This document shows, in pieces, positions 54,036-57,207 of a stretch of 64,000 bases of DNA. Source of the DNA: Frankia sp. QA3 (GTDB lineage: Bacteria; Actinomycetota; Actinomycetes; Frankiales; Frankiaceae). A model generated the notes under the pieces. The model was not told where the DNA came from. It saw nothing but the letters and a program-made list of their open reading frames with translations, and ran no database searches. The stretch is from the NCBI RefSeq assembly GCF_000262465.1, contig NZ_CM001489.1:4815243-4879242 (forward strand), given 5' to 3'. The translations under genes were made by a program, and so were the position numbers. The first letter of the stretch is position 1, and every line of letters starts with the position of its first letter.

Positions 54036-54773
54036 TCACCCCCGGGGTGTGGCCACCCTCCCGTTGCGCCCACCGCCATCGGCGGAACGCTCGTCGCCGG
54101 CCGGCGCGGCGCCGCCGGCGTGCAGGAACATCAGGACGGCCTTGACCCGGCGGTTGAGGTCCGGCTCGTCGGTGAGGCCGAGCTTCGCGAAGATCGAGTT
54201 ACTGTGCTTCTCCACCGCCCGCTCGGACAGCACGAGGCTCGCGGCGATGGCGGCGTTGCTCCAGCCTTGCGCCATGTGGCCGAGCACCTCGCGTTCCCGC
54301 GGCGTAAGCCGGTCCAGCGCGCTGTCGCGACGCCGGCTGCCGGCGGCGACGAGCCCCTCGACGACCGTCGGATCGATCATGGACTCCCCCGCCGCCACCG
54401 CACGGATGGCCCGGATGAGGTCGTCGACCCCGGCAACCCGCTCCTTGAGCAGGTACGCCCGCCCCGCCGCGCCCCCATCGAGCAACGCGATCGCGTAGGA
54501 CGCCTCGGCGTGCTGGCTGAGGACGACCACCCCGACACCGGGCCGCTCCCGGCGCAGCCAGCCGGCGATGCGGATCCCCTCGTCGGTGTGCGACGGCGGC
54601 ATCCGGATGTCGGTGACCACGACGTCCGGCTCGCTGTCCAGCACCGCCTGCTCCAAGGACGGCAGATCGGTGGCGGTGCCTACCACCTCGACCCCGCCCA
54701 CCCGCCTGATCATGGTCTCCAGACCCTGCCGGAGCAACGCATTGTCCTCGGCCAGCACCACCCGGACGGTCAT
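54036..54773 (-). CDS. NarL/LuxR-type response regulator
   Basis: A 245-residue regulator. Receiver: VVLAEDNALLRQGLE, phospho-Asp55 in VVTDIRMPP, VVLSQHA and LLKERV. Output: LTPREREVLGHMAQGWSNAA plus VLSERAVEKHSNSIFAKLGL, a LuxR helix-turn-helix. The C-terminal 30 residues are a Gly/Arg-rich tail. The ATG at 54773 lies 7 nt after TAGAGT, so a leaderless message is plausible. It is probably the transcriptional partner of the membrane kinase in the convergent ABC operon. Confidence 0.9.
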   Translation of the reverse strand: MTVRVVLAEDNALLRQGLETMIRRVGGVEVVGTATDLPSLEQAVLDSEPDVVVTDIRMPPSHTDEGIRIAGWLRRERPGVGVVVLSQHAEASYAIALLDGGAAGRAYLLKERVAGVDDLIRAIRAVAAGESMIDPTVVEGLVAAGSRRRDSALDRLTPREREVLGHMAQGWSNAAIAASLVLSERAVEKHSNSIFAKLGLTDEPDLNRRVKAVLMFLHAGGAAPAGDERSADGGGRNGRVATPRG

Positions 54774-54877: not shown

Positions 54878-56227
54878 CTAATTGCTCGACCAGGTGGGGG
54901 GCGACGAGGCATCGGATCCCCACACCACCGAGACCTCTGCGGCGGAACACAAAGCGAGTAGGTCGGGACGCGGTTTCCGGGGAACCAGGAGGACCATTCT
55001 TGGCGGTGGATCAAAAAAGCGGCGGTAATCGATGAGCTGTCCGATAGCCATACGGATGGCATCTCGCGTCACGGTACCTTTAGCCTCGATGAGCTCACCG
55101 GTCGTGTCATCGTAAAGATCGGTAAAAAGGGGATGAACCTCATCGGGGGGCAGAATCTGCTTTCTACACACCTCATGGCCAAGGGATAGAAGGTGCTCAC
55201 GGTAGGCGCTGACGAGGGCAGCCTCGCGCCGGAAGGCCGTGGTCGGCTCAGCCGGCGAGGATATCGCGTAGTTTTCGACGTTCGACGCCTCTACCGGGAT
55301 GGAGGTGACCCTGCTGGTCGTCGTGGGAGTCTCAGGGAGGTCTGCATCGACCGACAGCACCGACCCCTGCGGACGTAGCCGAAACATGATGACTGTCCGC
55401 AGCGGCCCACCGTTAGTTTCTGGCGCCTCACTCGTGTACCACGGGCGATCAGGATCGATCTCGAACGCCCCGAGATACTCAACGCCATCCGGCACGACGC
55501 GAAAGAGGCGAAGCGTGCGGCCGTCCCTCCGGTGAGCCAGGATGGCGAGATTCCCCTGCACCATCCGCTGATCACCAAGCTGCCCTTCCCCGGTGTAGTG
55601 GAAACATCCGTCGTCGCCCCACCCGTCAAAGTAGCCGTGCGACCGACCCCGTACCGGGTTCGTAAAGAGCAGCACATTGGGAGTGGAGCGGGACGGGCCA
55701 ATTCCGCCCTGACGTCGACCGCCATAACGCGCATGGACGTCGCGACGGACTACCACAACCCCCGGCTGGATCTCCCAGAAGACAGCGTCTGGGCCAGCAG
55801 GACCTGCCGCCTGACCTAGCAGCCGGTGCAGCGCCGCCGCGAACTGTTCACGGTTGCGCTCGTCTCGTAGCAGTTCAAAGGCAGGCGCGGAGAGTCCAAA
55901 CTCAGGATCCTCCCGATCCAGCCACCGGCGTGGCTGCGAGCTGTGCGCCGCGGGCGCTGCTGAGCCGGCGCGGATCTCCCAGAGCGGGGAGTTCCTCAGC
56001 GCCACCACCGGGTACTCGGGTGCTACTCGTCCGCGGTTCTCGACCCCACCCCCGACCAGCGCAGCCGCCAGCTCGTCGCGGACTTCCGACCAGCGGCGGA
56101 GCCGTACTCCATCCCCGATGCGCTCCACCGCCCACAGCAGCGTCAATGACTGATGCGGCAGCGAGACTCCCCGAGCCGACGCCCTCCGGAGCATCGACAA
56201 ACCGCTCAAAGCGTCATCTAGGTGCAC
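54878..56227 (-). CDS. Probable type IV restriction endonuclease: ScoMcrA-like sulfur-binding domain + SRA-like domain + PD-(D/E)XK nuclease
   Basis: A 449-residue protein. Residues about 8-90 (RASARGVSLPHQSLTLLWAV ... EYPVVALRNSPLWEI) resemble the ScoMcrA DNA sulfur-binding domain with its PHxxL and EYP...LW landmarks. Residues about 158-255 carry YFDGWGDDGCFHYTGEGQLG, an SRA/YDG-type modified-base reader. Residues about 335-435 carry a PD-(D/E)XK nuclease: D374, IEAK (E381, K383) and QLIDY (QxxxY). No HNH motif is present. It should cleave DNA bearing phosphorothioate or methylated bases. The gene is visibly less GC-rich than its flanks, suggesting acquisition. Start GTG 56227, or ATG 56194. 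Confidence 0.82.
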   Translation of the reverse strand: MHLDDALSGLSMLRRASARGVSLPHQSLTLLWAVERIGDGVRLRRWSEVRDELAAALVGGGVENRGRVAPEYPVVALRNSPLWEIRAGSAAPAAHSSQPRRWLDREDPEFGLSAPAFELLRDERNREQFAAALHRLLGQAAGPAGPDAVFWEIQPGVVVVRRDVHARYGGRRQGGIGPSRSTPNVLLFTNPVRGRSHGYFDGWGDDGCFHYTGEGQLGDQRMVQGNLAILAHRRDGRTLRLFRVVPDGVEYLGAFEIDPDRPWYTSEAPETNGGPLRTVIMFRLRPQGSVLSVDADLPETPTTTSRVTSIPVEASNVENYAISSPAEPTTAFRREAALVSAYREHLLSLGHEVCRKQILPPDEVHPLFTDLYDDTTGELIEAKGTVTRDAIRMAIGQLIDYRRFFDPPPRMVLLVPRKPRPDLLALCSAAEVSVVWGSDASSPPTWSSN

Positions 56228-56460: not shown

Positions 56461-57207
56461 ATGCAACCGGTGCGGGTACTCGTGGTGGACGACGAGACGA
56501 CGCTGGCGGAGCTGCTGTCGATGGCGCTGCGCTACGAGGGGTGGGAGGTGCGCAGCGCCGGGGACGGGCGTGGCGCGCTGCGGCTCGCGCGCGAGTTCCG
56601 GCCGGACGCGGTGGTGCTCGACATCATGCTGCCCGACATGGACGGGCTGGAGGTGCTGCGTCGGCTGCGGGCGGAGAGCCCGGACGTCCCCGTGCTGTTC
56701 CTGACCGCCCGCGACGCCGTCGAGGACCGGGTGGCCGGGCTCACCGCCGGCGGCGACGACTACGTGACGAAGCCGTTCAGCCTGGAGGAGCTGGTCGCCC
56801 GGCTGCGCGGGCTGATGCGCCGCGCGGCGCGAACCACCGAGGCGCTGCAGGGCGCGCGGCTCGTCGTCGGCGACCTGACCATGGACGAGGAGAGCCGCGA
56901 GGTGGCCCGCGGCGGCGTCCCGGTGCACCTGACCGCGACCGAGTTCGAGCTGCTGCGCTTCTTCATGCGCAACCCGCGCCGGGTGCTCAGCAAGGCGCAG
57001 ATCCTCGACCGGGTCTGGAACTACGACTTCGGCGGGCAGGCGAACGTCGTCGAGCTGTACGTCTCCTACCTGCGCAAGAAGATCGACGCCGGCCGCCCGC
57101 CGATGATTCACACGATGCGGGGCGCCGGCTACGTGCTGCGGCCGGCCGAGACCGACTATCCCGTCCGGTCGGACAGCGCCGCAGCCTCCCCCGCACCCAC
57201 GGCGTGA
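56461..57207 (+). CDS. PhoP-like OmpR-family response regulator
   Basis: A 248-residue regulator closely resembling mycobacterial PhoP. Receiver: VLVVDDETTLAELLSMAL, phospho-Asp54 in VVLDIMLPDMDG, VLFLTARDAVEDRVAGL and DDYVTKPFSLEELVARLR. The winged helix shows LTATEFELLRFFMRN, VLSKAQILDRVWNYDFGG and the wing VVELYVSYLRKKID. GGAGAAG precedes the ATG at 56461. It is likely transcribed with the kinase 12 nt downstream. PhoP-type boxes lie before this gene and before the glycosyltransferase gene. Confidence 0.92.
   Translation: MQPVRVLVVDDETTLAELLSMALRYEGWEVRSAGDGRGALRLAREFRPDAVVLDIMLPDMDGLEVLRRLRAESPDVPVLFLTARDAVEDRVAGLTAGGDDYVTKPFSLEELVARLRGLMRRAARTTEALQGARLVVGDLTMDEESREVARGGVPVHLTATEFELLRFFMRNPRRVLSKAQILDRVWNYDFGGQANVVELYVSYLRKKIDAGRPPMIHTMRGAGYVLRPAETDYPVRSDSAAASPAPTA

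Follow-up and report, generated by a model that had tools for sequence, protein, structure and literature searches.

Does a gene wedged between two regulators in Frankia sp. QA3 encode a restriction enzyme that has kept the paired modification readers of ScoMcrA and exchanged the nuclease behind them? We analysed this gene in a window of 64,000 nucleotides (contig NZ_CM001489.1, positions 4,815,243 to 4,879,242; the source genome is a single contig of 7,590,853 bases). Its product joins a sulfur-binding domain (SBD), an SRA domain and a nuclease domain of the PD-(D/E)XK kind, and it is predicted to be a stand-alone type IV, or modification-dependent, restriction endonuclease, a reading to which we assign a probability of roughly 0.78. 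The prediction is carried by the following features:

54878..56227, minus strand: SBD-SRA-PD-(D/E)XK gene, 449 amino acids, GTG start.
55808..56227, minus strand: SBD, residues 1-140, matched to the SprMcrA SBD and by our module hidden Markov model (HMM) on L009, a record of the same gene.
56150..56155, minus strand: H25-Q26, by alignment Y31-Q32 of SprMcrA and H116-R117 of ScoMcrA in the sulfur pocket.
56000..56014, minus strand: Y72-P73...A76, by alignment Y78-P79-A82 of SprMcrA in the sulfur pocket.
55328..55792, minus strand: SRA domain, residues 146-300, from profile matches to ScoMcrA and SUVH5 and the module HMM.
55595..55633, minus strand: Y199, D201 and Y211 (Y-x-D...Y), likely flipped-base pocket of the SRA domain.
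54881..55240, minus strand: PD-(D/E)XK nuclease domain, residues 330-449.
55079..55120, minus strand: catalytic-site candidates D370 and E381-x-K383, from a 25-sequence alignment.
55025..55039, minus strand: Q397-x3-Y401 motif, invariant in the 25 sequences.

Type IV enzymes join a reader of modified DNA to a nuclease, and both are found here, the readers by homology of the SBD and the SRA domain and the nuclease by its fold. In phmmer searches residues 14-123 match the SprMcrA SBD structures 7cc9, 7ccj and 7ccd (E 1.5e-10 to 1.8e-10), and residues 18-243, which extend from the SBD into the SRA domain, match ScoMcrA (5zmn, E 2e-8). The NCBIfam model PT-DNA_restrict also picks up the protein (E 4.9e-5), with a score of 22.6 bits that lies far below its cut-off of 180. 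The sulfur pocket is formed by Y31, Q32, Y78, P79 and A82 in SprMcrA (PMC7470945; papers are cited by PMC number, in each case from excerpts) and by H116, R117, Y164, P165 and A168 in ScoMcrA (PMC6224610). In the window protein the corresponding residues are H25, Q26, Y72, P73 and A76, and each of the five occurs at the same place in SprMcrA or in ScoMcrA. The SBD is regarded as a winged-helix domain, and winged helix-turn-helix, SAD and HNH domains have been described together near Dnd genes (PMC10853773).

The SRA domain was recognised with a profile built from 16 SRA modules, which matches ScoMcrA (3.5e-8) and, independently, the SRA domain of plant SUVH5 (0.0023), while the PADLOC model mREase_IV covers residues 19-243 of the window protein (4.3e-7). 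The window protein itself has no Pfam match, SAD_SRA included; PF02182 is matched under its cut-off by the relatives L054 (1.7e-4) and L012 (0.011). Among the 16 modules Y211 is invariant and Y199 and D201 are at least 90% conserved, and in SUVH5 their counterparts in the alignment form Y-N-D...Y. In TagI the pocket consists of Tyr55, Asp58 and Tyr67 (PMC6212794), with the same tyrosine spacing and the aspartate one residue further along, and for this reason we regard D201 as a likely pocket residue only. TagI was not among the profile matches at E<=10. A full-length AlphaFold2 (AF2) model reached a predicted local distance difference test score (pLDDT) of 47.7, below 50 over most of the SBD part, and Foldseek with this model found no match at E<=0.001. 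Since the model is too poor for the SBD and the SRA domain, both assignments rest on sequence.

The nuclease module presents the reverse case. Its sequence profile finds no relative in the PDB (two chance-level matches, E 0.81 and 1.7), and a fold search confirmed the PD-(D/E)XK fold. E381, K383, R392, Q397 and Y401 are invariant in the 25 aligned sequences and D370 is found in at least 90% of them; in the window protein and seven relatives the motif residues are invariant. D370, E381 and K383 provide the D...(D/E)-x-K arrangement of such active sites. The first-pass annotation of this DNA had proposed the same three-part layout, with recognisable SBD and SRA domains and a nuclease fold in residues 335-435, and all of this was borne out, together with E381-x-K383 and the QxxxY motif; its D374, however, falls in a variable column, and the conserved acid is D370. 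An HNH family match was not obtained with Pfam, NCBIfam or PADLOC profiles, and the C-terminal HNH of the ScoMcrA family is replaced by the PD-(D/E)XK domain. One SRA-nuclease relative, L053 (G666), reads E-P-T in place of E-x-K and is probably a dead nuclease.

How does this protein compare with known modification-dependent enzymes? ScoMcrA has the order SBD-SRA-HNH, and PMC7461809 puts the number of homologues with an SBD-HNH fusion at more than 900. With ScoMcrA the window protein shares an SBD followed by an SRA domain in one type IV protein, with homology over both readers; ScoMcrA differs in an extra N-terminal head, in its HNH nuclease and in R117, where Q26 is found here. SprMcrA (SBD-HNH, as is EcoWI) has the closest SBD among solved structures and a glutamine at the same pocket position; unlike the window protein it has no SRA domain, and its nuclease is HNH. 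The combination of an SRA domain with a nuclease of the PD-(D/E)XK fold is on record (PMC12707154, PMC6212794). MspJI has the two in this order with a Q-x-K active site (PMC12707154), whereas in our 25 sequences E-x-K is invariant. MspJI and AspBHI, in which the SRA domain precedes an Mrr-like PD-QxK nuclease, carry no SBD, and the nuclease of the window protein finds no PDB sequence match. TagI (SRA-HNH) shares the SRA domain with the Tyr/Asp/Tyr pocket (PMC6212794) and differs in its HNH nuclease and the lack of an SBD. PvuRts1I likewise combines an SRA domain with a PD-(D/E)XK nuclease, but in reverse order, without an SBD and with a preference for 5-hydroxymethylcytosine and its glucosylated form (5hmC/g5hmC; PMC12707154). 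The SBD-SRA-PD-(D/E)XK layout was not met in the open-access passages and search listings that we covered. As far as we have seen the nuclease swap is new, while the principle of modular readers joined to nucleases is established. An SRA domain followed by PD-(D/E)XK was already known from MspJI; what sets the present protein apart is the added SBD, together with a nuclease module that has no Pfam or NCBIfam model.

From these features we would expect the enzyme to work in the following way. The SBD would dock on a phosphorothioate (PT) of incoming DNA, and the SRA domain would flip out a cytosine and check it for a 5-methyl or 5-hydroxymethyl group. The C-terminal PD-(D/E)XK domain, which is likely to be dimeric, would then cut nearby with D370, E381, K383 and a divalent metal ion, and in this way the enzyme may restrict phages or plasmids. 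The SBD and the SRA domain would each read a mark that is apparently not produced by the host itself. The host genome has no C5 methyltransferase, defined here and below as PF00145 at E<=1e-15 (N4- and N6-methyltransferases were not searched for), and no dndC at E<=0.001. Because two activities have been reported for ScoMcrA, it seems most likely, by analogy, that either reader alone can license cutting.

The distribution of the gene bears on which of its readers matter. Any match was found in 12/35 Frankiaceae genomes, the own genome counted, and the three modules stand in one frame in six of the 35 (the own genome, G399, G402, G405, G406 and G412), five of which are Frankia. In G418 the gene is divided between two contigs, in G401 it carries a frameshift, and in G396 a disrupted SBD remnant is left. 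The gene of G413 (L032) retains the SRA domain and the nuclease after an in-frame loss of the SBD, and G423 and G428, in which the SBD stands in another setting described below, complete the 12. This in-frame loss resembles the SprMcrA-S deletion (PMC7461809). Wider samples gave any match in 18/396 genomes of the phylum (window genome included) and in 41/393 of the class (window genome and all 35 Frankiaceae included). In the class sample outside Frankiaceae, SRA and nuclease share a frame in 13/358 genomes, 12 without an SBD and one (G629) with it; these are confirmed frames, and weaker matches lie outside the count.

Several of these observations weigh against phosphorothioate reading by the window protein. 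We compared eight SBD-SRA-nuclease genes, namely that of the window, L001, L002, L003, L005, L007 (frameshifted), L008 (which ends with its contig) and L030. All five pocket positions are kept in 5/8 (window, L001, L003, L008 and L030) and L007 has F in place of Y72, but L002 and L005 (2/8) read S-E/F-P instead of H-Q/Y-P, with only the proline and the alanine kept. Together with the SBD lost in L032, these altered pockets indicate that the enzyme may manage without reading PT. The base-contact loop, HGD in SprMcrA and SRGRR in ScoMcrA, is also unlike that of SprMcrA: H95 corresponds to H102, a serine stands for the glycine and the aspartate falls in a gap. Furthermore, the exchange R117Q, which gives the residue present in the window protein, weakened binding by ScoMcrA (PMC6224610), although glutamine is native in SprMcrA. 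The dnd genes are of little help, since dndC is too rare for a test of exclusion (2/35 genomes, neither of which belongs to the 10 that encode an SBD protein; p 1.0). It is conceivable, if somewhat doubtful, that the protein works through its SRA and PD-(D/E)XK domains only, as a nuclease for modified cytosine, and that the SBD is an auxiliary DNA-binding domain or a relic that no longer reads PT. The form without an SBD is the commoner one outside Frankiaceae and is also found on plasmids and in a phage, which would fit such a nuclease as do the altered pockets, the loop and L032. Against it stand the five retained pocket positions in the window protein and four relatives, and proteins in which an SBD accompanies these two modules in a different arrangement:

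L054:523-1962 (G629) and L082:1477-2901 (G844): proteins with the permuted order SRA-SBD-nuclease, which share 49% identity.

This order was found in 2/248 genomes searched of another genus, and it implies that the union of SBD, SRA domain and nuclease arose or was rearranged at least twice. One might go further and see in SBD-SRA a coincidence (AND) reader that needs PT and modified cytosine together, or in which PT sets the placement and 5-methylcytosine (5mC) licenses the cut; the three modules would then have been fused in two orders as the pair is useful, and hosts would drop the enzyme on gaining a C5 methyltransferase. We consider such a reader unlikely, and return to the reading in which either mark suffices.

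The modules are also shuffled beyond these arrangements, and their presence in other reader-nuclease fusions speaks for the restriction-enzyme reading. The following proteins are among the examples:

L035:493-1929 (G428) and L036:1498-2937 (G423): SBD followed by a different central region, zinc-ribbon-like in one stretch, and by HNH_2 (HNH_2 by Pfam on L035 only).
L079:2992-3888: gene of the Gordonia phage Sidious protein gp63, an SRA-nuclease protein; it directly precedes two genes with a methyltransferase annotation.

Both Frankiaceae proteins, L035 and L036, have an SBD related to that of the window protein (62-64% identical), but a different middle part and HNH_2 behind it. In an SBD tree the G423/G428 form is nested among the SBD-SRA-nuclease proteins, and the branches that decide its position have bootstrap values of 84-92%; since the outgroup branches are long, we give this nesting moderate weight. 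The protein search of phage records matched two records, both of phage Sidious. SRA-nuclease proteins on Streptomyces plasmids are annotated as hypothetical proteins among the matches listed, and both modules were confirmed in L080. The nuclease module stands behind other N-termini in L014-L018 and L022, and the SRA module is joined to NOV_C in L011 (Pfam) and to an HNH-like C terminus in L019 (by eye). In L026 its fusion partner, as judged by eye, is a long region in which a Walker-type ATP-binding motif can be recognised. The SBD, besides HNH_2 in L035, is followed by HNH in L021 and L041 (both by eye). L041 (G402:C77:13682-14002, by eye) is a second SBD-HNH protein in a genome that also has an intact gene of the window type.

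What, then, does the position of the gene tell us? It is flanked by regulators:

56461..57207, plus strand: OmpR-type response regulator, divergent, the anchor of the site, present in 13/13 Frankia genomes searched.
54036..54773, minus strand: LuxR-type response regulator (named by eye), on the other flank.

The genes adjoining the candidate are these two regulators, and the earlier description of a single-gene system wedged between them in less GC-rich DNA agrees with what we measured. The gene has a GC content of 0.641 and a GC content at third codon positions (GC3) of 0.702, compared with a GC3 of 0.92-0.96 in five neighbouring genes; by part, GC falls from 0.69 in the SBD to 0.64 in the SRA domain and 0.59 in the nuclease. 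A similar piece of the LuxR-type flank, a short one, was seen only in L002 among 13 relative loci compared. The GTG start is supported by L001, L002, L003, L005 and L007, in which the frame opens only 3-5 codons ahead of the equivalent GTG. The closest named relatives are those of F. torreyi (91% identity), F. gtarii (62%), F. tisae (61%) and Frankia sp. AiPa1 (56-57%). As judged from its sequence composition, the lower GC points to acquisition from outside, at a time old enough for several Frankia species to share the gene. A recent strain-specific island was considered and rejected, because the gene occupies the same place in several Frankia species. A DNA-processing nuclease with modified-base binding domains outside defence, for example in repair, would hardly be expected to show such patchy presence (12/35) and broken copies at a low-GC site shared with restriction-modification islands, and we hold this to be very improbable.

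Within the genus Frankia the gene stands divergent beside the OmpR-type regulator, intact in 5/13 genomes, broken in 2/13 and absent from 6/13. A C5 methyltransferase is found in 0/5 genomes with the intact gene, in 2/2 with a broken one and in 5/6 without it (0/5 intact vs 7/8 others, Fisher p 0.0047; the p values given here come from several tests and are uncorrected for their number). For full-length genes across Frankiaceae the numbers are 1/6 vs 20/29 (p 0.028), and for the presence of SRA-nuclease 2/8 (G412, G418) vs 19/27 (p 0.039). Of the seven Frankia genomes with a methyltransferase, all except G401 have it within reach of this OmpR gene, at a distance of 0.2-6 kb, and the site therefore tends to hold either the type IV gene or the methyltransferase. 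Pfam matches among ten proteins of the islands in G396, G397 and G404 include, besides methyltransferases, Vsr and a UvrD helicase (G396), an HSP90-type ATPase and a ResIII-Mrr protein (G397) and Vsr (G404). The site divergent from OmpR (L071-L076, upstream of the OmpR gene) looks like a defence hotspot in Frankia, with C5-methyltransferase islands where other genomes hold the type IV gene.

The alternation between the gene and the C5 methyltransferase is suggestive only. It would fit a nuclease that reads 5mC and, equally, a hotspot occupied by a single system at any given time. Outside Frankiaceae the association is weak (4/13 vs 165/345, p 0.27), as it is in the whole class sample (6/21 vs 184/372, p 0.074), and once relatedness in the tree is allowed for, 2-3 independent pairs remain, each of which points the expected way, with a sign test p of 0.5. 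Relatives outside the genus break the pattern, and both the intact G412 and the contig-split G418 have PF00145 matches; that of G412 is partial (2-168 of 324), and a few motif strings were not found in frames above 250 amino acids in the 3.3 kb around it. We see an even chance that the alternation reflects only the turnover of systems in a defence hotspot and is uninformative about the mark that the SRA domain reads. The short distance to OmpR in six of seven genomes and the non-significant tree-corrected test favour such turnover. Only the two broken cases speak against turnover as the whole explanation: G401 has its methyltransferase on a different contig, yet its copy of the gene beside OmpR carries a frameshift all the same, and in G396 a disrupted SBD remnant lies about 1 kb before the methyltransferase, which is followed by Vsr.

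Our data suggest that the ScoMcrA-type reader pair is not tied to HNH cutting. Frankiaceae offer a natural module swap, in which closely related SBDs are combined either with an SRA domain and PD-(D/E)XK or with another middle part and HNH. If active, enzymes with PD-(D/E)XK might have a better defined cutting geometry than ScoMcrA and be of use in mapping PT or 5mC, and the OmpR-adjacent site allows a test of mutual exclusion between 5mC methylation and a 5mC-reading nuclease. Electrotransformation of Frankia has been reported with unmethylated plasmid, conjugation from a methylation-positive donor also worked, and an Mrr-type enzyme has been named as what probably limits transformation of F. 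alni ACN14a (PMC6769113). The enzyme described here, if active, would be a further candidate for such a barrier in Frankia besides the Mrr-type one.
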